A stretch of DNA of 20,856 nt from assembly GCA_018398765.1 (NCBI GenBank), contig JAHBMJ010002256.1, positions 1 through 20,856 of the forward strand, in the 5' to 3' direction. This DNA comes from Chromera velia (lineage: Eukaryota > Sar > Chromeraceae). The translations under genes were made by a program, and so were the position numbers. The first letter of the stretch is position 1, and every line of letters begins with the position of its first letter. Positions 3,273 through 20,756 of the stretch are shown piece by piece. The notes beneath the pieces are model-generated. The model saw only the letters and a program-made list of their open reading frames with translations. It was not told where the DNA came from and did no database searches.

Positions 3273-3300
<28 letters not shown>
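3273..3300. repeat. (GA)n microsatellite
   Basis: An uninterrupted dinucleotide run on the plus strand, in intergenic sequence. Confidence 0.95.
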
Positions 3301-6255: not shown

Positions 6256-6323
6256 CTATTGATGTACGCCCCCTTCACCGACCCGGAAGCAGCCCTCCTC
6301 TAGAGTAGAGGCAATCGCAGTTC
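6256..6323 (-). CDS. RCC1-repeat gene exon 11 (candidate terminal exon)
   Basis: After acceptor TTCATGCAG it reads TAIASTLEEGCFRVGEGG and stops at TAG (6258-6256). It resembles the missing second half of blade 7 ('HTaaiT..G'). The usual 'V..V.CG' just before it is weak in the joined product, so a small extra exon between 6758 and 6324 may have been missed. Confidence 0.5.
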
Positions 6324-6574
6324 CTGCATGAACACAAACAATCAAAAGGGCACTTGCAGTCATGCATGGGGGAGGCATGCAGGAGGGAGAAGAGACCACC
6401 AACCAGACGGCCATCAAGAAGAGAGACAACTAAACTTCGTCTCTCCCTTACAAGAAGGCAGAAGACGCACGAGGTAAGAAGAACAGGGAGAACAAAGAGA
6501 AGAGACATGCTACAGCGATCGAACAGCTGTTTCCCATTCTTCACAAAAACACCACAAACTCCCATTTACTCACT

Positions 6575-6611
<37 letters not shown>

Positions 6612-8850
6612 CATACACACATACACAGTGACACACAAAAAACACACACACACACATACACACACAGAAAGAGGAGAGAGAGAGAAAGAGAAAGAGAGAG
6701 AGCACCCGCGCGACAGAACCGGACAAATCCAGAATAACCATTCCATTCTCTGACCCACCTGGCTGCACGCCCCCCCCCTCCTGTTCGGGGACTCCCAACC
6801 CTTCCTTCCACTGCCCTCCTGCCAGGCAGAGACGCCCGTCTCCCCCCTTGCCCCACATGAACAAGCGACCGTCATCTGCAAGCAGCAAGGACACATGCAG
6901 CCCGAAACGGTGAGGCAAACGCAAAGGACAAGCCGCACATGACAAAGACAAAGCCAATCAGCAGAGCGTACATTCATATTGTATTTGTGGGGACTCTGAT
7001 TCGTTCGTGCTTTCTTCCATCCTCTCTGCACATTCCCACCCAATCCTTCACACGCTCGCCCCAGCCTCGAACACATTCATTCAACGAACTCTGTATGGAG
7101 CGTTCCGAAAGTGACTCGTCCATTGTGCAGGATTCAAAAGGCCACAGAAGGAAAAGTGAGGGGACAGAAACAGTTAGCAACCAAATCAGCACAAACGCAA
7201 ACATTCCCACCCCAACCAACCCGAAACACTGGCGGAGTGCGTCTCTCCTGCTGCGACGTCTCTCGCCCTCAACCGCGCCCTCTGAGCCGTCAGCATCGGG
7301 AGCTGCACGCACAGTTGAAAGATCAAAAAAGGCCGCCGGGTTTCTCTTCTCTCTTTCTTCCGTGCATAATTTCCAAGAAAGCTTTCGTGCGTATCATGAA
7401 AAACGCAGGACGAATCTACAGTTCAGGCAACTCTAGATGCAAATCGATTTGCACGTCCGGTGGAATGGCTTTACTGTGAAGAACACTGAAGGGCATGAGG
7501 GAAGCGGGGAGCACAAACATATGGAAGGAAGAAGGGATTTTTTTTTTTTCAAGTGTGACGTTTCGGTCATCCAAACGCGACACCCAACCAACCGTCAATT
7601 AGAAGAATATCATATGAAAGAGAAATTCAATGAATGAAGCAAGGAAGTTGGGAGATCATAGAGAGCACTGAATATCATTTATTTTTTTATTTCTCCGCTC
7701 ACCCTTTCAGGTCTTCCAATCACCTCGCGTCTCTGTGTCTGTCGTCTCGGAGCCCTCCATGCCTCCAGCTCTGTGACTCCCCCTTCCCCCCCCACACCGC
7801 ACTGCCCCGACCCGTTTGCTCCCCATGCCATCATTCTCCCGTCATCCCTGCGTGCGCAAGTACAGATCCACACATGAATGTATGCCAAGAAACGGTACCC
7901 CGTAACGACACCACTGTCGGAAAGGAACACAACACTGATTTTGCTCCAAGCAGAGACGGGGACGGATAATCGGCAAGAAGGACAGAAAGACGAGAAAACA
8001 AAAGAGAAGCTGAGAACAATTTCAAGTGCGAAATGACGGACTGACTTTGAAGCTTTCCGTTTCCATACAACAAATGTCCTGTCAGACAAACAAACACAAG
8101 AGATAGAATCTGATCAAATCTGTGAACCTTCGCATAAGCACGAACAGACAGACCTAATCAGCAGCCCATGTCTCTTCCCTGCGGCTATTCGTTTGACTCC
8201 TGTGCTCTTCAACTTGAACGGGCTCAGACCGTCAAGCAGGGTACCCCTCAACGACACGGCTGCTGTCGGGGGAATATCGGCGTGACCTGAGTGGGTTTGA
8301 GGATGAGGAAGCCCTGCTGTGTCCGCATTTCTTCCCCTTCCCCCCGCCCTCCTCTCCCCCTTCCTGCTGGCCCGTCTCCCCTCCCCGACAGCCCTGGCAG
8401 AAGACCCCAGAGCCCTCCTCCCCCCTCCCCCCGTCTCGCTGAAAGAATCGTCGCCCAACACCCACAGGGCACCTAGACCTGCGTGCATGGACGGGACACT
8501 AAGGTTCACAACTACCGTGTTTGTTCTTCTTACGCACAAATTCAGGGCTGCATGGGAGAGAGCCTGTAGGTTTATCTCTCTTCCTTGCTCCCTTGTCCAT
8601 CCGACAGGCAGGCAAGCAGGCAGACAGACTATATGTTTCTTCTTCTGCCTCCCTTTCTTCATGTACACAACAGGTAGGCAGACAGATGCACAAACAGAGA
8701 GAATATAGAAAAATGGAAGGGAAAGAAGGCGAGCCGGTGCCTGGGCAGAGGTTTTCTCCTTCCTCCTTCTCTCTCTTCCTTCCATCGTTCAAACTAGAGG
8801 TCACTGACTTGCCCACTGACCAGCTACTAACTCTCCGATCGATTGACAGT

Positions 8851-8881
<31 letters not shown>

Positions 8882-11800
8882 ACTGACTGACTGACTGTCA
8901 AGCACAGCGACGAAATGTCCCCCCACAGCCAATTGAGTGATCCCATACGGTTGCGACTCAGGGCCCATTCCGTGCTCTGCCTCTCCCTCTCCCTCTCGGG
9001 AAGGCACCCGGTCCCTTTCCCCATGCACCTCCCCCCGATGCCCCCTCCCGCCTTTGTCTCCAGAAAAGGAAAAAGAGACTGCTGCCTCTCCTTCCATCCC
9101 CTCCTGCCGTCCCCTTTCTTTCTCCCCTTTCATCTGCTGTCTTCTTTCAGGACTCGAGTCTGTGTCCACACTCGGGGACACCCCCCTCCTTCCTGACGGT
9201 AGAAGAGAAGAAGGATTCGGTCCGGGGTCCCGAAAGCAGTGCAGGAGAGTAGGCTCATGGAGAGCCACGAGACCACACACAAGACCCCACGCATACAGAT
9301 TCCCCGATTCAGCTGCACAGAAGACCTGTCGATCCCTGGAGCCAATCGCTGTAAACCTCTCAAAAGATTCTTCATCCACTTTCCACCCACCCCCCTGACG
9401 CACGCTACCGCCTTGGCCCACCGCACTGAGCAGTCGTCTGGGACCCTTCCCGGCTGTGCGTTTTTTCTGCAGAAACAAATTCATTTGTTCGTTCGTTTCC
9501 AGCATTGACCCTAGCAAAAATTGATTTGACGAACAGAGAAAAACTCAAAGAATATTACAGGATGGTGTATGTGTAAATGGGTGTTATCCTCTCCCCCTTT
9601 TCCCGCTTCTCTGTCCTTGTACGCATCGAGAGGCATACCCGCAGGACGAGAGGAAGCTGAGGGGCATCTATTTATTAGACGCATGAGAACATGCAGCTGC
9701 GCAAAACCAGATGGGGGGTTGCAGGCATATAGACATGCAGGCATATATCGTGCGCACCCACAACTTCAGAAAGACAAAAGAGGGAAAGAAAAAAGAGGGG
9801 AGGAAGAAGACCAAAAACAATTAAGGGATTGGAACAATGACACAAAATAAGAGTGATCCCCATCATCGTTCCTCCCGAACTCTCCAACAAGACAGAAAGG
9901 AACATACCGAAGCAGCCTCAGCTTCTTTTTTGTCCTTCTCCCTTTTGTTACTCCGGACCCGCAACGCAGCAGGAAACACCACGTCGTCCTGTAACGACGG
10001 AGGCAGGTCCGTGGTCCTCTGATCTCTCCCTCCCCCAGATTCTTCCATTTTCATCAGATCAAAAAAAGGGGAAGAAGATCGAAGGGCGTCTTCGTTTTTG
10101 CCGTCTCTAGTTGAGGCTGCAGATGCAGACAGAACCGATTTTCTGACCACTGCATTTGCGACACGGTCCAGTTCTGCCCAGGCAGACTCTCTCATTCTCT
10201 TTGCCATCTCCCTCTCTCCAAACGCGACCTCAAATTCTCCCTCGACCCCCTCCTGCCTCTGCCCGTCTCCCTCCTGCTCTTCTACAGCCCCAGCTTTATT
10301 TTCGTTTTCATCTCTGCCCCTCAAGTTAGCTCTCAGTCGTGACACACCATTACTCTGACACACAAACCCGAGCCCGTCCACCAGATCCCCTCCTTCTGTC
10401 TGCCCGGAAACGGGAGGGGATCTTTCCCTGTTGTCCTCCTTTTCTTTTGGGTTCTCGGCAGGACGGTCTTCAGATACAAAGGAGGAAGCCACGCCCGCGA
10501 CCTCCCGCGATCCCCACAAGAAAATTTCACCCTTCATTCACATGCAAACACACGAATCAAACATTTTTAAGTTGAAACAGGCAAACGCGCAGAGGAACAC
10601 AGAACGAGGAGAAAGCGACCCGCACAAATATATATACACACACACACTCACACGTCCAGACAGACAAACTATATGTTTCTCCTCCAGAGACAGACAGACA
10701 GACAGACAGACACACACACACACACACACGGAGAGAGAGAGAAAGAGAGAGAGGATGAGGTCGACTCCCATCTCCCAAAACCCTTGCTTGCAGGCAGACA
10801 GGCAGGCAGGCGGCTCACCGCATCAGTCAAGGCCACAGAGTGGAACGCCCCCGCTGCGATCTCCTTCACACGCAGAGACCCCACTCTCAAGTCCAGTCCC
10901 GTTCTCTCTCTCACTTCTTCCCTTTCACTCTCCTCCAACCCCTCCAAGGCACTCACCCAAGGAAGATGCCGTCTCTGTCCCGACACCGAAGACTTCCGTC
11001 CCCTCCCTCCCAGGACCAATTCAGGACTAGAGACGTACTCACGCACCTCTATGTCCAGGCAGGTTGACTCCCTTTCCCCTTCCTCCTCTGCCCCTACTGA
11101 GGACCCCTCGACCTCCCTCGCAACGACCACCCCACACTGCCCCCTCTGATTCGAACCACAGGCCCACACCTCCCCTCCGGCTGCAATTTTGGGGAGGAGG
11201 GTCGGAGTTCATGAATACCCAGCACACGGCCGCACGAATGCAGATATTGCGAATGCGTTTTTCCGATAAAATGTAGAAATTCGCAACACATGCGGGCTTT
11301 GTTTGTACTCAGGCAGAATGGGAGCAAACACGTTGAAGGAACAGAATGCACGCAGGTCCCTCCATGATTGCGGCTGTGATTCTTTTCATTTTCCCTGCGT
11401 CTTCTCCACTCCTTTCTCCTCCCTCGCTCCCTTCCTCCCGAAAATCGGCGTAAATTGCCTTCCTTTAAGAGAGAGAAAGAACATGCAAGAGAGAGAAAGA
11501 ACACGCAAGAGAGGAAGAACATGCAAGAGAGAGAAAGAACAGCAAGAGAGAGGAAGAACACGCAAGAGAGAGGAAGAACATGCAAGAGGAGGAAAGAAGC
11601 AAGGAAGGAAAGGACGGAGGGAGAGAAGAAAGGAAGCCAAACAAAGAAAGAGGAACAATCGCTCTGACCTCCAAGCAGAATCAAATGAGATGACCCCACA
11701 GCTACTTGACGAATCGGCGCGTCAAACAGCTGATCGAAAATTGCAGACACTCCACTCAGAGACGGCAGCGCCATTCCTCCTATCCCATTCTTTCCAGGAA

Positions 11801-12746
11801 CGTTCGCACCCCCACACTCACACACCACTCTCCGGTCTTTTTCTCTCTCATTTGCACGGACCTGTCTCCCCCCTCCACCTGCACCTATTCCCGAAAGCTC
11901 AACTCCCGACATTCCCCCTCCCCCCTCCCCCCCCGTCTCCAAGCTGACCCCAACTCCAACTCCCGGCATCACCCCCCCAAATCGCCCAGTCAACCCCCGC
12001 ATGAGCCCGCCGCCACCCCGCCCCTCCCCGTCTCCACGGAGGCCATGCGAATCCTCACCCACACCCGCTCCTCGCAGAAAGTGCGCAAACTCACGAGCCT
12101 TCGCAAGCGACGCACCAAGCTCTGAAGCTGAAGCGACGGAGGTCCCCTCAGCTATCTGCTCAGCGCTACTAAAAAGTTCTGACCACACACACACACACAC
12201 ACGCACAAGAAACAAGGGGGGGGGCATGATTGTGTGTCCGTCCGTTCGTCCAACTGTCTTTGTTTCTGCCAGTATGAGTGTCTTTCCGTCGGTGCGTATG
12301 GCATTGACATTGTCTCTCTCTTTGTGTTTCCTCTTCTCTCTCTCTTGCCGCTTCTCTTTTTCTTTCTCTGTCTCTCTGTCCCCCGTCGCACCCACTTCTC
12401 TCGCTCTTCACAACGTCACGTCATCTGACGTCCGTCTATCTACCTATCCATGTCTCTTATCTGTCCGAACACCAGCCCATCCGCCGAACCATCAACCCAC
12501 AGGTTCATTTTCCACGCATCCATACTCCAGTCGACCGACTCACTTCCCCAACAGAAGACCAGCGTGGGCGTGCAGCTGCTCCCCTTCTCGGGCGGTGTCC
12601 AGACTGCAGTCATCCCATCCATTCAGGCACACAAAACGCATCTGTTTTCTTTCTTTCCTTCCGTTCCTCTTCCAGGCAAAAGACAGGTGCGCGCGTACAA
12701 AGACACACACACGCACACGCACGCACACGCACGCGCGCGCGCGCAG

Positions 12747-12793
<47 letters not shown>

Positions 12794-12978
12794 GAGAAAG
12801 ATGGATGCAAAGATAGAAAAACACAGGGAGACAGGGACGAAGGTGGGTAGACGGGCAGAGAGCGACAGCTAGAGCACGAGAACACATCCTGCCTGCATCA
12901 AGGATTGATCTGACTGACTGACTGACTCCAGTCTGTACTCGTGAGGAGCTTCTTGTGACTTTGCTGCTTCGTCGCCAT
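6256..12978 (-). CDS. RCC1-repeat (beta-propeller) protein, 11 exons
   Basis: Eleven exons join in phase with GT-AG introns into about 971 codons: 12978-12927, 12603-12544, 12178-11669, 11180-10819, 10531-9908, 9466-8896, 8478-8154, 7847-7703, 7302-7221, 6875-6759 and 6323-6256. Start: ATGGCG at 12978, preceded by GGCACG, a purine-containing eukaryotic start context. The product shows seven W-G or C-G blade motifs (FCWGK, VWACGSN, IFLWGSR, LYAWGL, LWVLGDD, MMAWGAN, LFMWGKG) and seven partners of the 'AAG..HSLALT' type (VGSSHLILL, AAGAFHSVALT, GSRDRQVFCAA, VGGHFVAVL, AAGKRHGLL, AAGETHSASV, TAIAST). RCC1 propellers have seven such blades and usually act as protein-interaction or GTPase-exchange platforms; the specific role here is unknown. 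Long Gly-, Glu- and Ser-rich inserts make it more than twice the size of RCC1 itself. The last junction is uncertain. Confidence 0.85.
6579..6702. repeat. Compound (CT)n-(CA)n-(GA)n microsatellite in RCC1-gene intron 10
   Basis: On the plus strand the order is CT, CA, GA. In the sense of the host gene it reads (CT)n, (GT)n, (GA)n. Confidence 0.9.
6759..6875 (-). CDS. RCC1-repeat gene exon 10
   Basis: Residues 912-949 opening DGRLFMWGKGGDGRL, the seventh W-G motif. Acceptor TGCTTGCAG. I placed the donor at GTGGGT (6758); an alternative phase-1 donor lies about 50 bases further on. Confidence 0.65.
7221..7302 (-). CDS. RCC1-repeat gene exon 9
   Basis: 82 nt encoding residues 884-910 with RARDVAAGETHSASVS, the second half of the unit begun in exon 8. 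It is too short to stand out as a reading frame and was found from the motif and the phases. Acceptor GCGTGCAG, donor GTTGGT. Confidence 0.8.
7703..7847 (-). CDS. RCC1-repeat gene exon 8
   Basis: Residues 836-883. Opens DDGRMMAWGANGSGQCG, a near-canonical first half of an RCC1 unit. The donor GTGAGC leaves phase 0. Confidence 0.85.
8154..8478 (-). CDS. RCC1-repeat gene exon 7
   Basis: Residues 728-834. Opens LGALWVLGDDSFSET and closes VKRIAAGKRHGLLI, with a Gly/Arg-rich loop between. It ends in phase 2 at donor GTCTGT. Confidence 0.85.
8851..8896. repeat. (CTGC)n-(TGAC)n microsatellite abutting a splice donor
   Basis: Thirty bases of CTGC units followed by four TGAC units. On the gene strand the TGAC part supplies the exon 6 donor, GTCAGTCAGTCAG. 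Confidence 0.9.
8896..9466 (-). CDS. RCC1-repeat gene exon 6
   Basis: Residues 537-726. The first part ends a blade (ERFTAIGSRDRQVFCAAESG), followed by NLYAWGL, an acidic/basic insert, and ITQLAVGGHFVAVLD. The acceptor is TTTCTGCAG; the donor GTCAGT lies at the head of a (GTCA)n/(GGCA)n repeat. Confidence 0.85.
9908..10531 (-). CDS. RCC1-repeat gene exon 5
   Basis: Residues 329-536. Opens GEIFLWGSREV, then is almost entirely a charged, Ser/Glu/Arg-rich insertion. It includes a Glu/Gln-rich stretch and an Ala/Arg/Glu-rich segment (MRESAWAELDRVANAVV) that may be helical. Donor GTATGT; phase 0 both ends. Confidence 0.8.
10687..10754. repeat. (GACA)n-(CA)n-(GA)n microsatellite in RCC1-gene intron 4
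   Basis: In the sense of the gene this reads (CT)n, (GT)n, (GTCT)n. Confidence 0.9.
10819..11180 (-). CDS. RCC1-repeat gene exon 4
   Basis: Residues 209-328. Opens GGEVWACGSNQRGQCG, has a Glu/Arg-rich insert, and closes VKEIAAGAFHSVALTDA. It is one complete RCC1 unit framed by acceptor TTGCAG and donor GTGAGC. Confidence 0.9.
11467..11600. repeat. About 20-bp minisatellite, six copies, in RCC1-gene intron 3
   Basis: Units containing GCAAGAGAGAGAAAGAACA recur with GCAAGAG starting at 11485, 11505, 11523, 11542, 11562 and 11582 (periods 18-20). On the gene strand it is a pyrimidine-rich tract. Confidence 0.9.
11669..12178 (-). CDS. RCC1-repeat gene exon 3
   Basis: Residues 39-207. It begins LFSSAEQIAEG and continues through a Gly-rich low-complexity insert to RQVAVGSSHLILLG, the end of blade 1. 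The acceptor follows a (GT)n tract; the donor is GTCAGA. Confidence 0.85.
12183..12204. repeat. (CA)n microsatellite next to exon 3 acceptor
   Basis: Reads (GT)n on the gene strand and ends only a few bases before the AG of the exon 3 acceptor, partly replacing the polypyrimidine tract. Confidence 0.9.
12544..12603 (-). CDS. RCC1-repeat gene exon 2
   Basis: 60 nt from acceptor GACTGCAG to a consensus GTGAGT donor. It encodes residues 19-37 ending TLVFCWG, the first blade motif. Phase 1 at both ends matches both neighbours. Confidence 0.75.
12702..12800. repeat. (CA/CG)n-(GA)n microsatellite in RCC1-gene intron 1
   Basis: Reads (CT)n then (GC/GT)n on the gene strand. It includes an alternating GC run (12732-12744) with Z-DNA potential. 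Confidence 0.9.
12927..12978 (-). CDS. RCC1-repeat gene exon 1 (start)
   Basis: Encodes residues 1-17, starting MATKQQSHKK. It ends in phase 1 at a GTCAGT donor that is itself the start of a (GTCA)n run. Confidence 0.7.
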
Positions 12979-14014
12979 CGTGCCTTCCCTCACCATGCGT
13001 AGGTCCAAATGCAGCCACAGAGAGCCACAGAGAGCGATGCAATTCAAGGCCACTGGAGTTTGGTCAGCAAGGAACTGCAAACGCAGATCGATTCATGTAG
13101 AGAGACGCCCTTCCCGCTCGCATGAAAAGACACAAGAGAATTTGAGTGAAAACGTGCTAATTGATATACGATCCTGTTTTTTTCTGTTAGGGGTTGCTGG
13201 CTCCTTCAACTGCTTGCTGGACCGGAAGCTGAGTCTACTGATGGCCTCTTGCATCTGTCTGTCCTGACTCTGGTGTTTAGACTTCGAGGCGAGCCAGATG
13301 CAATGAAGAGTGCATGAGCCTTGTCAGCCAACACATCAATGCAAGCAGGAGTCAGGACGTCATCTGAGTGGTACGGCGTCTGTCTCGTCTGGACGCAAAG
13401 ACGGATCATGGCAGCTCGACTCACGTACTGGGGCCGTACTACTGGCATAGTCACTGCCGGAAGGATGCAGCAAACCGGACGCTGTTGCAAATTCAACACG
13501 TCGCCGATGGCTCGCCGACGGTCGACTAGCTGTATACTAGCTGTTGCACGCGCAACACGTTCCGTTGCAAGTTGTGTACTAAGACGGATGTAGAATGGAT
13601 GTAGACGGTGAAATGGTGCCTCTCAGAAAGTCTGACTGGGAGTCAAGTCTGACTGCTCAATGTCGCGTCACAATCGAAGTTTCAGGGACATATCTCGCCA
13701 ACAGTCGCGGCTACAAATGTATGTAGCTAGTCTATGGACACGCTCCAGCCGACCTTCGTTCTGCTTTTAAGCGGTCAATGTACGTTTACACTATCGCTTA
13801 TCATTGCGACTGAAAATTGTAGGATAAGTAGCTTTTGCTACAGAAGCGAACCCAGAGTGGTGATCGCTTGGCACTGTCAACAAGTTTGGAGCCCCTTCCG
13901 CATTTGAGCCTGACGAAACGAGTCTTCTGGATTGGTCTAGGGGGTCTCTGAGATAGTCTGGAAGGAGACGGGAGAAGGAGAGGAAGGTTGAAAGAAGGAA
14001 GAGTGGGAGAGAAG
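12979..14014. promoter_or_regulatory. Head-to-head intergenic region
   Basis: About 1 kb separates the start codons of the two divergent genes, so it should contain both promoters. I see no TATA box I would trust. It holds a pair of related 21-mers (13481-13501 and 13540-13560) with identical arms GCTGTTGCA and CAACACGT and a variable 4-base centre. It also holds an 11-bp direct repeat of ACTAGCTGTAT (13525-13546). Open frames at 13206-13593 have no recognisable protein features. Confidence 0.45.
13540..13560. repeat. Short hairpin in the divergent intergenic region
   Basis: GTTGC (13543-13547) and GCAAC (13552-13556) form a perfect stem around ACGC. A related copy with centre AATT lies at 13481-13501, where the arms GTTG and CAAC are kept. 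Confidence 0.6.
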
Positions 14015-14540
14015 ATGATGCCATTACCACCAAAAGATACACTCAAGCTTTGGAATGTGTCTGGTGGGGATTTTCATGTTTTTCTATCGCTTTGTTTGGC
14101 CGGAGGTTTGCTCTTTCTTTCTTTCGTTATTGTAGGGGGAGCAGACAAGATTGCCGTCTCCCTCACGCTCTTTGGGAGGTTCATGCACTGTTCGATACTC
14201 TCCTTTCTGTTCCCTTGTGTTTTCTCTTTCCGTGTGTGTCCGGCTTTCTGTCCACGGTTTGAGCAAACCGTGTGGAGAAAATCTCTGTGTCCCAACCTTT
14301 TGCTCCTCTGCGTATCTGCGTGTCTCTTTTTCCTCTGCGTGGATGCGTGCGTGCGTGCGTGCGTGCATGCATGTATCTGACTCTTTACACACTCACCCCA
14401 ACGCTTTGTCTGTGGCGTTGCAGGAGGCGCCTATCGGACCAAGGAAGCGGAAGACAGTCAGCTATCTCAGTGTACCTCTCTTTCCATCTTCATGCCTCAC
14501 TCCGTTTGTTTCTTTTTGTTCTCTCTCTCTCTCTTTCTCT

Positions 14541-14589
<49 letters not shown>

Positions 14590-15348
14590 TGAGTGAGTGT
14601 GTGTGAGAGAGTGAGAGAGAGAGTGGGGGGGGGGAGAGAGGGAGTGATGCACGTGCTCACTTCAAGACACAGAGGTCCTTCCAAAGCACGGATGCATGGA
14701 TGGATGGTTAGATGGGTGGATGGGCGGTTGAATGGGCGAATGGACAGACAGATGGATGGATGGGTGGGTGTGTGGCTGCTCGGATATGTTTCGCTTGCAT
14801 GAATTATTCCTCTGGGGGCAGTGCATTGGTTGTCATGTACGTTGGTATGTTTTCTGTTTTGCTTTACACTTCTTCTTCATTCACGCTTTTGTCTCCTGCT
14901 TTCACTCTTGTTCCTTGCAGCATTGTATGAGCGCATTTCCTGTCGGAGAGGAGAAAGAGAAGGAGAGGGACAAGAAGCAGAGAGCCGATTGCCTGCTGAA
15001 CGGGTCAGTGATGTGGGAAGGGGAGTGATAGGAGGGAAGGGAAGAATGATTCTTCGTATTGAAGCTGAGAGTGGCATCTGATGGCCTGGCCATCTCCGTT
15101 TCCCTGTTTTTGGGTTTATGGAATTGTCAACAATACATCACATATTCTGTGGCTGCATCTTTGTGTGTACGCTTCAATGTTTGTGTTGTCTATCTTCCGT
15201 CAGTCGTTTCTGTCTAGAACTTGTGTTTCTCCTCGTTTTCGACAGAAAATCTTTCGAGAACCTTTCCGTGCCTGTCGTCATCCTTGCGTATGATAACGCG
15301 TTCATTGATTCAGAGGATGTGCACATTTGTCCTTTTTCTGTTTCTCTA

Positions 15349-15390
<42 letters not shown>

Positions 15391-16193
15391 TTATTGTCCC
15401 TTTTTTTTCTTGCGAGACGAAATCTTTCTCAATCGTCGCGAGGATTCTCGTGGACTGCGGGAAGGTGAATGGATGTATTGCTCTGCAGCAGAAGAGGATG
15501 CCCGATTTTTCTTTCGCATTGCAGCCGTTGGCCTTTGTGGTCTGTCTGCTGGGGGTGTATGGGTCGATGAACGTCGGGTGCATCTGTCGGATGGCTTCCG
15601 TGTGCGGGTACGTGGGTCTGTACGTGCATGGGTGGGCGAGGTATGGTGGGGGAATTCCATTTTATTTGTTTTTTCCTCAAACAGAGGGAGGGAGCTTCAT
15701 CGTGTGTTCGGCTGAGAGAGAGGCTCCTTCTGTTCTCTCTGGCTTGAGTGGTTGGATGGATGACGAGGCATGCGTGGTGTGGGTATGCTCAAAGAAACAA
15801 GAAGCTGTTGTGGCGTCTATCCTCTCAAAAACTCGAGATGCTGCCTTCAAGTTTGCTTTGCATTCGACAGTCTTTCTGGGAACAGAAGTCAATTAAGTCC
15901 TGGACTCTTTCTTCGTCTTTGTGGACTGCGGCCTGGATTCTCCTTCCGTTCTGACTGCATGTGTGCAGGTGTGAGAAAGTCATTCTTATCGGTGAGTCAC
16001 TCCTCTATCCTTCCCCCCACCCCCCACCTCTTTTCTCTCTTTCTGTCTGCCTGCCTGCCTGTCTGTCTGCCTGTCTGTGGTCAAAGGACAGAAGAAAGAA
16101 AAACGAAGAAAGGTAGTCATAGATTCTAGTCTGTCTGCCTGCCCGCCTATAGTTTTCTTTGAAGACATTTTGGTCGGATCGACACCCTTTTTG

Positions 16194-16231
<38 letters not shown>

Positions 16232-17398
16232 GACCACCGTCCTTCTCTTCTTTCAACCCTTCGCCCTCTCCTTCCTTCTCTTCGTTTCTCCACCCCATTC
16301 TCTCTTTCTGTTTCTTCTCTCTCTCTCTCTCACACACACACACACGCACGCGGCTTTCGAGTATTCCTCTCCAGCGCTTGCACGTTCGTTCTCGCTCGCT
16401 TTTCTCCGACCTGTCTCTATCCCTTCTTCGCTCTCTCAGGTGCGGGGAAGCTCGACGAATGTTCTCTTGTTGATGCCGAGCGGTGGATGTGCGTTGAACG
16501 ACTGGACGCGCCCATTCAGGATGATGAAAAGGGAGCAGACACACAAGACCAATGTGACAAAGGGGATACTTCAGCAGGTGTATCGATGAAGGTCCCCGCA
16601 CGGCATGAGAAGGAGAGGAGGGACGGATCAGATAAACGTGAGCTCGTGGAACGAGTCTGTGCGGATGTGACAGATCCAGAGGGGGCCTCTCGGAATGTAC
16701 CCAGGTCCTCCCCTCCCCTGGAAGGCGGCCAAACCTCTTCTTCTTCTTTTTCTTCTTCTTCTTCTTCTTCTTCTGTGTCTGAGCTCTTTTGGGAGAAGAT
16801 GAGGGAGGAGAGACTGTGGCCTATTCCAATCGGTCAGTTGGTTCTTTTTGTGCCAATGGGGAGCGGGGGATCTGATGAATCGTGTCTCTCCCTCTAGCCT
16901 TTTGTGCATCGGGGTGGCTAAAGGCAGGCAGACAATTCCTGAATGGACGGCTTCAGACGGCCCACCCTGCTTCTATCCTGCCGTCCTGTGGTCAGTCTGC
17001 ATTGCTCGTCCCTATCTGGTTTTTCCTCATCAGCAGCACCCAGTCCTCCATCCAGCAGCAAGGGGCAGATAGATGAAGTGGGACGGCAGGTGCATGAGAT
17101 TTTGGACCTGTGTTTTGCGTCACGCGTTCTGGGATTTTCTGTGTCTTGTTCATGTGATACATACAAGTGTGTGTGTTTTGTTCTGCATGGTCATGTGCAC
17201 GTGTGAATGTGCAGAGACGGGGGGGGCCTCGTTGTCTTTAGTCGAAGGGGAAGAAACTCGAGAGGTTGGTGAGAGGGCAGGGAAGGGATCGGGAGTGAGG
17301 GGCGGGAAAAAAGGGGCACGTTTTCCTTGGGAGTCTTATTTCTGTTTATTTCAGAGGGTGGAGATTCCACCGTTCTTCTTGTTTCTTGCTTTGTTTGT

Positions 17399-17453
<55 letters not shown>

Positions 17454-17566
17454 TGTGTGTCTGTTCGTTTCGTTTCTTTGCTTGCTTGTTTGTTTGACTG
17501 TTCTTTCGCTTCGTTTGTTTGTGTGTTTGCTGATTTCTTCATATTGTGTTTGCCTGCCTACATGCC

Positions 17567-17618
<52 letters not shown>

Positions 17619-17788
17619 TGGTCTTTGTTGGCAGTGGGAGCAGATACTTGGCCCGATTTTCTCTCAAGGTCTTCGCCCCTGTCTCTGCCTGGGTGGTGAG
17701 GGCGAAGGAATCCCTTCATGGCTGCGGCCTGGCAATGGGAGAGAAGAGGTGGCAGAAGCAGAAGAGTTCGGTGAGGGGGGACAATTGA
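14015..17788 (+). CDS. Multi-exon gene of unknown function
   Basis: A phase-consistent chain of 11 exons (about 386 codons) is: 14015-14056, 14424-14471, 14921-15003, 15246-15318, 15417-15464, 15687-15850, 15969-15991, 16440-16832, 17034-17166 and 17635-17788, with the 23-nt fragment at 15969 as a microexon; I count ten listed segments plus possibly unseen ones. Start MMPLPPKDTLKLW. Central part: VPVVILAYDNAFIDSED, then FSIVARILVDCGKGGSFIVC, VVWVCSKKQEAVV and CEKVILIGGAGKL. This alternation of beta strands and helices resembles the C-terminal half of class I methyltransferases (METTL/FAM86 type), but no SAM-binding motif I was found upstream, so I leave it unassigned. Exon 16440-16832 is polar with a poly-Ser run. 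Alternative: the gene ends at TAG 16895-16897 by reading through the GTCAGT at 16833. Exons 1, 9 and 10 are the least certain. Confidence 0.5.
14520..14640. repeat. (CT)n-(GT)n-(GA)n microsatellite in intron of the plus-strand gene
   Basis: Same order as the sense reading of the repeat in the minus-strand gene's intron 10. Confidence 0.9.
15351..15392. repeat. (TTTC)n microsatellite
   Basis: Pyrimidine tetranucleotide tract lying 25 bases before the proposed acceptor at 15416, within a short intron (15319-15416). Confidence 0.9.
16197..16345. repeat. (CT)n tract and nearby (CT)n-(CA)n tract
   Basis: Two arrays, 16197-16227 and 16317-16345, in the intron before the exon at 16440. The second is (CT)n-(CA)n and does not follow the CT-then-GT order seen elsewhere. 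Confidence 0.9.
16440..16832 (+). CDS. Largest exon of the unknown plus-strand gene
   Basis: Starts after CTCTCTCAG in phase 1 and reads AGKLDECSLVDAERWMCVERL, then a charged region, a poly-Ser run encoded by TCT codons, and FWEKMREERLWPIPI before a GTCAGT donor. The acidic and basic clustering with few hydrophobics suggests a disordered linker. Confidence 0.6.
16735..16774 (+). repeat. (TCT)n coding trinucleotide repeat
   Basis: Twelve or so TCT codons, broken once by TTT, encode a poly-Ser run inside the exon at 16440-16832. In-frame length variation between strains would be expected. Confidence 0.8.
17403..17461. repeat. (CT)n-(GT)n microsatellite
   Basis: Sense-oriented compound repeat within the last proposed intron of the plus-strand gene. 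Confidence 0.9.
17571..17620. repeat. (CT)n-(GT)n microsatellite just before a splice acceptor
   Basis: A second compound repeat in the same intron, ending 15 bases before the proposed acceptor AG at 17633-17634. Confidence 0.9.
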
Positions 17789-17994
17789 AGAAAGAAACAT
17801 GCATTCATGAAACAGGAAAAGAAGACAGATTGCCGGTGCAGTTTATTTCGATTCCGATGAGTTCCACAAGGAGTGTCGCATCTTTGAACGTGTCTGCAGC
17901 AGCTGCAATTGCAATTTTGGAAGTCAATCAAATGATACATATGAATAAGTGATTGGATAGATAAATGATAACGATGTTTTTAAACAATGTCATA

Positions 17995-18380
17995 TGAATG
18001 AATGAACGAACGAACGAATGAATGAACGAATGAACGAAGGAAGGAAGAAAGGAAGGAAGGAAGGAAGGACGGAATGAAGGAAGGAAAGAAGGAAGGAAGG
18101 AAAGAATGAATAAAGGAAGGAAGGAAGGAAGGAAAGAAGGAAAGAAGGAAGGAAGGAAAGAATTAAATTTCAATGAATTAGTGAGTGAGTGAGTGAGTGA
18201 GTGAGTGAGTAAGTAAGTGAGTGAGTGGGTGAGTGAGTGAGTGAGTGAGTGAGTGGGTGAGTGAGTGAGAGGGTGGGTGAGTGGATGAGTGAATGGGTGA
18301 TTCAGTGAGTATGTGAGTGAGTGAGTGACTGAGTGAGTGAATAAGTGAGTAAGTAAGTGAGTGAGTGAGTGGGTGAGTGA
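17995..18380. repeat. Tetranucleotide repeat block: (GAAT/GAAC)n, (GGAA)n, then (GAGT)n
   Basis: 17995-18037 consists of GAAT/GAAC units, 18038-18165 of GGAA/AGAA units, and 18180-18380 of about 50 GAGT units with scattered variants. The plus strand is almost pure purine in the middle part. The frames that stay open through it (Thr-His-Ser-Leu type on the minus strand) are repeat artefacts. Confidence 0.95.
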
Positions 18381-18604: not shown

Positions 18605-20756
18605 TGATTGATTGATTGATTGATGCAAAACCCTAGGTGGAGTTAGAACTCCCGGGCGGCGCATACATGCATGGGTTTGTTCAATTATGCCAGCTGCAAG
18701 CTAAGTGGACGACAGTTATTCGAACTTAATCTAATCAATCATTTACTACAACATGACGAGAAATCATAAAGAGGAGAGGGGGTTAAGAGTGCAAGAGCGA
18801 TGTAATGAACTTGCGAATCCCCAGATCAGAAAAGGAGGCGGATGCAAAGGGTGAATCACAACGAGTGAAGCGATCTGATTGAATTAATGCCAACCACTAT
18901 AAAAAGCCTTGTTCGGCAGTCTATCGGGGGCAGACAGAGAGCTGATGAATAAAATCATCTACACACTGGCAGCAGGCTTCATAGGTGCACAGCTTTTTAT
19001 CAGAGCAACCAACAGGCAGCCCACCTTGCCCGCCGATCGGGTTGTATGTCAGTATGCGCAAAAAAGAAAAGAATCAAAAGATCGAGCCATCCGTAACCGA
19101 CAGGGCAGAACGGGGAAGAGCAGAGACGGAAAGAACATCGGAGGACGACTTACTACACAGGAGGAAAACAAACATATGGCGGGAGGACGAGAAATCACGC
19201 TACAGAGGGGTGAGTCTAGCAAGGAGGGGAAAGTGAGAAGAAGATTGCCCATCATCCTTAGAAGCCTTCATGCATTCCTTTACAACTGTCTGTCTCACCT
19301 TGCCCTTAAAGAAAAGTGAGCCAGTGTCTTGTGCCCTACGACCATTCTGCCCACGTTGGGAAGACAGATCGGGCTCGACCCTCAGCGAGCGGACAGAAAT
19401 CAAATCAGCCCAACAAAGCAGCCTGTCTATAGACCTTATGAATTGTTGGCAGCAGTTATTCTTCCAGGCATGCAACATGGCTGCAGGAATAGTGTGTGTT
19501 GTGATGGAAAGAGAGTGCCACCAGTCAGCCACGCAGGAGCAGAGAAAGGCTTTGCAGGGAAGTCTTAGAAGACCAAGAATACAAAGAAAGAGCAAGCAGA
19601 AGCTGCGAGCAGACAAATGGCCATACCAACGGGCAAACTAAAGCTGCAAAGCATTAAGAGCAAGCAGGTTTGCATCCCGGACTGGTAGATATTTAAGGCA
19701 GTAGAGCGCTACGAAGGGCCCGGAGGCTCTAAAGACTGTTACCTGCGTATCAATGCTGAGCGGGCCCATACTCGCAATCAATCTAATTACCCCTCCCAGA
19801 GCCCGTAAAGCAGAAGCAATACGGGACTCAATTGCCTTGTTTAAGCACCCCCCTTCAAAGAAAACATACCCCAGATATTTGTATTCGGATGTCGATTCAA
19901 CTTCCCTCCCACCATACATGACTCTACCTGCAGACTGCCCCAGAGCCAAGGCAGACAGGCACAAGATTTTCATTTTTTTTAAGTTCACAGTCAATCCCTA
20001 TTCCTTGCAATACCCTTCCAAGGCTGAGAACTTCTTTTGCAGATCTGAGACGGAATGAGCAAGGAAACAGAGATCATCCGCATACCCCAGACTACCTAAG
20101 ATACAGTTGTCAAGGAGGACAGGTTTGGGCTCTCTCTCGGGCTCCTCGACGCTGCCCTCCCCCATTCTGCTATCTGACCATCCTACTCCCTCTGTTTCTC
20201 TATCTACAGCCCCCTCGTTCTTACTAACTGAACACACACGGGGAAGGTCATTGATATAGATAAGAAAGAGAATAGGAGAGAGAGCATCACCTTGCTTTAC
20301 CCCAGCGCCCTCCCGAAAACGCAAAGAGTCCCCGTCTACCTTTTTCCAGACCTCCCTGTACATTATACATATCATACACACATCTGCCTCACACACACCT
20401 TCTCAGAGTCTTCTCAGTTTCTGAATTAGCTTACCTCTCGGCACAGTGTCAAAGGCTTTGGAGAAATCAATAAAGCTTGCCAGCAGAGCTTTCTAAGGCT
20501 TTTTTTTTTTAGAGAAGAAAATGGCAGAGACAAGCGCGCCTACTCTTTCCCTCGTTTCCACGGTGATCCCTTGTCTGAAACCTAACTGCCTGTCGTTAAG
20601 CTCAACTTGAGAGTGCACACAGCCGTCCATCAGCAAACCAAAAAGTTTTGCGAAAGGGTTGACAACGTGAATAAGCCTCTATTCATTAGGAGAGGGAGAG
20701 GCAGGGCCTTTAGGGACAGGGCAGATATGCAGCACATTTCAGAAGGGCATACAAAG
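18605..20756 (-). mobile_element. Non-LTR (LINE-type) retrotransposon, decayed
   Basis: The minus strand carries a reverse-transcriptase frame (20750-19200) followed by about 600 bases of non-coding sequence. That ends in a four- to five-copy CAAT-type repeat (plus strand GATT units, 18605-18624), a typical LINE 3' terminus. The upstream edge is unclear: recognisable protein stops near 20750, where AT-rich sequence begins, so the copy is probably 5'-truncated. I see no endonuclease domain in the window. No target-site duplication was found by eye. Confidence 0.7.
19200..20750 (-). pseudogene. LINE reverse transcriptase, interrupted by six stop codons
   Basis: One continuous frame contains the RT blocks in order: ICPVPKG, HVVNPFAKLFG, LNDRQLGFRQG, ASFIDFSKAFDTVPRGKL, GVKQGDALSPILFLIYINDLP, GYADDLCFLAHS (YADD at 20073-20084, the catalytic aspartates intact), LTVNLKKMKIL and YKYLGYVFFEGG. 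In non-LTR elements this enzyme primes cDNA synthesis at a nicked chromosome. Premature stops lie at 20739-20741 (TGA), 20679-20681 (TAG), 20493-20495 (TAG), 20403-20405 (TGA), 19998-20000 (TAG) and 19638-19640 (TAG). No frameshift is needed over the RT domain. Beyond about 19600 the frame stays open to 19200, but no domain is clear. Not functional as it stands under the standard code. Confidence 0.9.

Follow-up and report, generated by a model that had tools for sequence, protein, structure and literature searches.

Adjoining dinucleotide arrays in the genome of Chromera velia follow a 5'-to-3' order, CT-(GT or AC)-AG, which is genome-wide, strand-symmetric, sharper with increasing block length and far stronger than the preference of the same repeats for one strand of genes. 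That preference, a lean of CT and GT repeats towards the sense strand inside genes, is supported by our counts as well. The lean is about that of the surrounding DNA, and the arrays probably for the most part inherit the T-rich composition of introns.

The order was scored with exact 28-mers over the whole 177.8-Mb assembly (4040 contigs), on both strands and with exact matches only. The phase-continuous neighbours (TC)(TG) and (TC)(AC), whose blocks are one substitution apart and which thus constitute compound microsatellites, were present as (TC)7(TG)7 in 5585 and as (TC)7(AC)7 in 1428 exact copies (the latter 694 and 734 by strand). The opposite orders were found 67 times for (GT)7(CT)7 (25 forward and 42 reverse) and 79 times for the AC compound (33 and 46), giving skews of about 83:1 and 18:1, respectively. 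Because reverse complements count together, CT before GT and CT before AC are a single rule; since this rule reads alike on either strand, it cannot on its own follow the direction of transcription or replication. An earlier sequence-only reading of this DNA had treated the CT-then-GT order as a signal of the gene strand, a claim that fails as the compound is equally common on both strands (2785 forward and 2800 reverse copies).

The effect of block length was followed in 249 kb, where the ratios of CT before GT to the opposite order at block lengths of 1+1 to 4+4 units were 3622:2973, 54:26, 10:1 and 5:0, and those of CT before AC were 1821:1854, 15:7, 7:0 and 6:0. Long blocks of AT and GT are also polar: with seven units each, AT preceded GT in 315 copies genome-wide (166 and 149 by strand) and followed it in 47 (24 and 23). 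This polarity was absent from short AT and GT blocks of 1+1 to 4+4 units in the 249 kb (1110:1064, 7:9, 1:2 and 1:2). As a control of generality, (TC)6(TG)6 and its opposite order were sought in viral contigs and gave no match, and among at least 238 loci listed with TC/TG arrays in prokaryote and viral contigs a single compound array was found, with GT then CT. The order polarity is strong, simple and countable in any assembled genome, and it could reveal how one microsatellite spawns another, by pointing to the end that mutates and to DNA structure or polymerase direction.

The stretch of DNA analysed, hereafter the window, comprises 20,856 nucleotides and corresponds to contig C2244 of the assembly. 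Pfam profiles identified a divergent gene pair around 13-14 kb, an RCC1-repeat gene on the minus strand and a SpoU-like gene on the plus strand, which bears out the divergent genes described earlier, although the SpoU-like match lies under its curated cut-off. Head-to-head clustering of genes is described for Chromera velia in PMC4501334. Exon boundaries within the window were judged by eye.

6326..12158, minus strand: RCC1-repeat gene, from Pfam, open exon translations and splice sites read by eye; both ends open
12158-11664, 11180-10817, 10532-9908 and 9511-8896, minus strand: RCC1 gene exons, first part, by eye and approximate
8479-8151, 7848-7702, 7303-7228 and 6876-6760, minus strand: RCC1 gene exons, remaining part, by eye and approximate
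14424..17949, plus strand: gene with a SpoU-methylase-like C-terminus, from Pfam; introns by eye

Matches to RCC1 or RCC1_2 were obtained on 3 of the 7 scanned exons of the minus-strand gene. The SpoU_methylase match falls on the last exon of the plus-strand gene (E 0.00037; 21 bits, against a curated cut-off of 29.7), and we infer that the plus-strand exons of 14424..17949 belong to one gene. All eight arrays named by the sequence-only reading are present in the window, and they are given here together with two further arrays, distances to splice sites being judged by eye.

6578..6702, minus strand: compound array of CT, GT and GA in sense order, in the intron at about 6759-6326
10687..10754, minus strand: compound array of CT, GT and (CTGT)n in sense order, about 60 nt past a donor
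12183..12204, minus strand: (GT)n in sense orientation, about 24 nt ahead of a likely acceptor
12702..12800, minus strand: compound array reading CT and GC/GT in sense orientation, upstream of the first exon recognised
14520..14623, plus strand: compound array of CT, GT and GA, about 63 nt past a likely donor
16197..16226, plus strand: (CT)15
16316..16345, plus strand: CT then AC
17403..17464, plus strand: CT then GT, about 40 nt past a likely donor
17571..17620, plus strand: CT then GT, 14 nt ahead of a likely acceptor
3274..3299, strand not assigned: (AG)13, outside both genes and left out of the strand count

At 6579-6702 and 14520 the described succession of CT and GT on the sense strand is correct, but both arrays also carry GA parts that had been overlooked, (GA)16 at 6578-6609 and a GA part at 14572-14622; further sense-strand AG runs, likewise missing from the earlier account, lie at 10903 and 12335. 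The (CT)15 at 16197-16226 had also escaped notice, yet it agrees with the claimed sense orientation. The array at 16317-16345 had been singled out as an exception; its succession of CT and AC is confirmed, but it obeys the genome-wide order rule, under which CT before AC is the prevailing form (1428 against 79). All arrays had been called intronic, which is not supported for 12702-12800, upstream of the first recognisable exon (12158). Of the proximity to acceptors that had been attributed to several arrays, two of the eight listed (17571-17620 and 12183-12204) have a likely acceptor within about 30 nt, and four others begin about 40-63 nt past a likely donor, all judged by eye.

The strand lean in the window was counted on CT, AG, GT and AC runs of at least five units in the spans 6300-13300 (minus) and 13900-18000 (plus), one CG run being left out. 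CT or GT stood on the sense strand in 20 of the 26 runs, and AG or AC in the other 6 (two-sided binomial p 0.009 on the assumption of independence, which does not hold for these runs). When the arrays were grouped into 13 clusters, 9 were sense, 2 antisense and 2 tied (p 0.065); with 13 clusters, the window by itself is not enough to establish a rule. The proposal that CT and GT follow the sense strand of each gene thus stands as a lean over single runs; it is less clear by cluster, and the GA blocks are of the antisense type.

A wider sample was obtained from a Pfam myosin profile search, which returned 37 exon matches of known strand from 9 contigs. Seven myosin loci holding 35 of these matches were sampled, and the DNA between their exon matches, together with eleven window introns, made up 24.2 kb. 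This sample is small and drawn mainly from one family, with two loci (C1231 and C3136) that look closely related, and the DNA between myosin matches also takes in exons missed by the profile search. Runs of at least four units numbered CT 20, AG 5, GT 9 and AC 7 between the myosin exon matches, and CT:AG 35:9 and GT:AC 17:8 on the sense strand of the whole 24.2 kb. By length (2, 3, 4, 5-7 and 8 or more units), CT:AG was 280:155, 50:23, 19:5, 8:2 and 8:2, and GT:AC was 174:97, 32:6, 5:1, 6:5 and 6:2, with no lean of GT over AC at 5-7 units and few arrays in the longest class (10 CT/AG and 8 GT/AC). The sense strand of this DNA is rich in T over A (skew +0.22 overall, +0.34 for the window introns and +0.19 for the stretches separating myosin exon matches); an excess of G over C was not found in the 24.2 kb (GC skew -0.009).

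Eight compound arrays (L001-L008) were picked by pattern alone, after which the strand of the gene around them was sought. For two of the eight, the surrounding gene was identified by homology and the array stands in sense orientation, in L003 with SUEL lectin and EGF exons and in L005 between two PNK3P exons. None of the eight was antisense by homology; L001 was antisense by a weaker codon model, whose top segment was sense at 5 of the 8 loci, antisense at this one and absent at 2. The model was derived from 35 myosin exon matches, two of which hold a stop, and assigned the correct strand to 35 of 35 when one gene at a time was left out. As a gene finder it was rejected, window exons scoring poorly, and it served as an aid for these eight loci only; when the DNA was reversed it still called many segments (20 against 50 at a threshold of 10). 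A codon-usage gene finder trained on long open reading frames was rejected as well, having called plus segments within the minus-strand RCC1 gene, and Pfam on ten exon candidates of contig C1 gave one match, to malate synthase. Neighbouring repeat clusters shared orientation in 0.61-0.74 of pairs up to 1.5 kb apart, in 0.52-0.56 of those 1.5-4 kb apart and in 0.34-0.50 of those 4-10 kb apart, the pairs not being independent of each other. Among 100 listed compound arrays of the (TC)7(TG)7 type, shared orientation at 1.5-5 kb was absent (5:5).

The lean was compared with a first-order Markov model of the same 24.2 kb from which runs of three or more units had been removed. At 2, 3, 4, 5 and 8 units the model predicts a CT share of 0.65, 0.71, 0.77, 0.82 and 0.91 and a GT share of 0.70, 0.78, 0.85, 0.90 and 0.97, the two-unit values being partly circular as the training DNA kept two-unit runs. 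A lean clearly beyond the sequence background was not found, the observed share being at or below expectation in 8 of the 10 length classes and above it for CT at 4 units (0.79 against 0.77) and GT at 3 units (0.84 against 0.78). As two-unit runs already lean, this indicates that arrays mostly take over the composition of the introns in which they lie. The strand lean is hence a caution that a splicing function should not be assumed for repeats which may be mere mirrors of T-rich introns.

Taken together, these counts make it probable that the strand lean comes from a T-rich background, on which an independent process of block order at the DNA level is superimposed. Pyrimidine-rich tracts and the avoidance of false acceptors may account for the T-over-A skew of gene-internal non-coding DNA, in which short runs such as CTCT and GTGT are about 1.8 times as frequent on the sense strand as AGAG and ACAC. 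Arrays would grow from these runs as skewed seeds and inherit their lean, and during growth a strand-symmetric process, presumably mutational and not driven by splicing, would place the GT or AC block 3' on the pyrimidine strand. Tentatively, and with less confidence than in the two-part account, the CT-(GT or AC)-AG grammar may be ascribed to a directional process acting on homopurine-homopyrimidine arrays at one end, e.g., triplex-directed mutation. In triplex DNA of the H-y3 form the purine strand has its 5' half unpaired, and in this candidate route the unpaired half would mutate, with slippage to follow. As long AT-GT blocks are polar too, a cause more general than a triplex is needed.

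Selection might instead keep the arrays as sense-oriented splicing signals, CU and UG repeats of the pre-mRNA binding PTB-like and CELF/TDP-43-like proteins. CU- and UG-rich intronic enhancers are bound by PTB and CELF, and the present arrays are alike in motif composition and unlike them in having a bias that is not clearly above background. The sense-strand arrays of the lectin (L003) and PNK3P (L005) loci and the two window arrays immediately ahead of likely acceptors agree with such a role, as does one of two counts made with an acceptor proxy, (CT)7 or (AG)7 within 30 nt upstream of TTGCAGG, which is one acceptor form only and has many genomic copies that are no acceptors. Distinct sites on both strands, counted by hand in contigs C1-C1874, for which the CT and AG sets are complete, numbered 34 for CT and 19 for AG (p about 0.05, by hand); forward matches were nearly equal, 31 for (CT)7 and 27 for (AG)7, which speaks against the proposal. 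These two measures were used since variable-gap patterns overcount the reverse strand (raw reverse counts of 193 for CT and 87 for AG). The GTAAGT donor pattern with (CT)7 gave 50 forward matches, a count made for this one orientation and not drawn on here. The CT excess near TTGCAGG is weak and no greater than the background lean, by which a role at acceptors is neither shown nor excluded; a modest preference for the acceptor side is possible. With the lean within background in most length classes, GA blocks inside the same window introns and an order rule that is strand-symmetric, recruitment as splicing enhancers, as put forward in the sequence-only reading, is not supported, and selection for splicing signals appears distinctly unlikely. 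A direct bias of sense-strand repeat growth by transcription-coupled repair or transcription-associated mutation is unlikely also, if marginally less so. In mammals, transcription-linked asymmetry comprises T over A plus G over C on the sense strand. The first is shared here, in myosin loci and window introns alike, but the second is not, the GC skew of the same DNA being about zero, and arrays add nothing clear above background; the transcription-coupled repeat bias suggested earlier survives in a weak form only.

Least probable of all is that the order rule is an artefact of sequencing or assembly, with loci of the opposite order dropped from a short-read assembly. The Chromera velia assembly of PMC4501334 is indeed described there as short-read, with low-complexity regions being troublesome, and contig C1 contains 17,325 N in 200,000 bases. 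Against this, loci of the opposite order would present the same GT or AC flank as single arrays that were assembled, and the order is already visible at 2+2 (54:26) and 3+3 (10:1) units, lengths which short reads span.

Strand-biased intronic microsatellites are known already. In introns of Daphnia pulex, CT exceeds AG and GT exceeds AC on the sense strand, with T-rich motifs preferred (PMC3152781), and the same two inequalities hold in our 24.2 kb from a different eukaryote, with a lean largely explained by the background model. The parts of PMC3152781 consulted contain no mention of compound order. Kofler and colleagues described AC-AG compound microsatellites in eight animals, and section 2.7 of their paper tabulates conformation, not the 5' block (PMC2644718). 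Like those compounds, ours have adjacent blocks one substitution apart and occur in both conformations (CT-GT and CT-AC); unlike those tables, our counts score block order, with its skews of about 83:1 and 18:1. Vowles and Amos reported 5'-3' asymmetry in sequences flanking human (AC)n (PMC509290). Here, too, a dinucleotide array has non-equivalent ends, the asymmetry lying between whole adjoining repeat blocks and being counted genome-wide, unlike in PMC509290. A search by title and beginning of abstract found no report of the CT-(GT or AC)-AG rule, which is weak evidence of its absence from the literature.

Further repeats were noted in the window. Nearly perfect tandem duplications (72 and 171 bp) lie at 357-867 and 2452-2711, regions which include a 66-bp repeat of 3.9 copies whose reading frame stays open. 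Long tetranucleotide arrays (GAAG then AGTG-like) occupy 17996-18380, just beyond the stop of the plus-strand gene, and a pyrimidine-rich 20-bp minisatellite, CT-rich on the sense strand, lies in an intron of the RCC1 gene at 11467-11598. Two introns of this gene share, by eye, a stretch like AGAAACATATAGTYTGTCTG (about 10680-10655 and 8640-8615, minus strand). A fragment resembling reverse transcriptase at 19998-20402 on the minus strand (RVT_1, E 3e-5, under the curated cut-off) is probably an old retrotransposon. Donors in loci L029-L034 and the window introns, read by eye, often resemble GTNYGY (e.g., GTCTGT, GTGCGT or GTACGT) and not GTAAGT, and the acceptors mostly end in GCAG.
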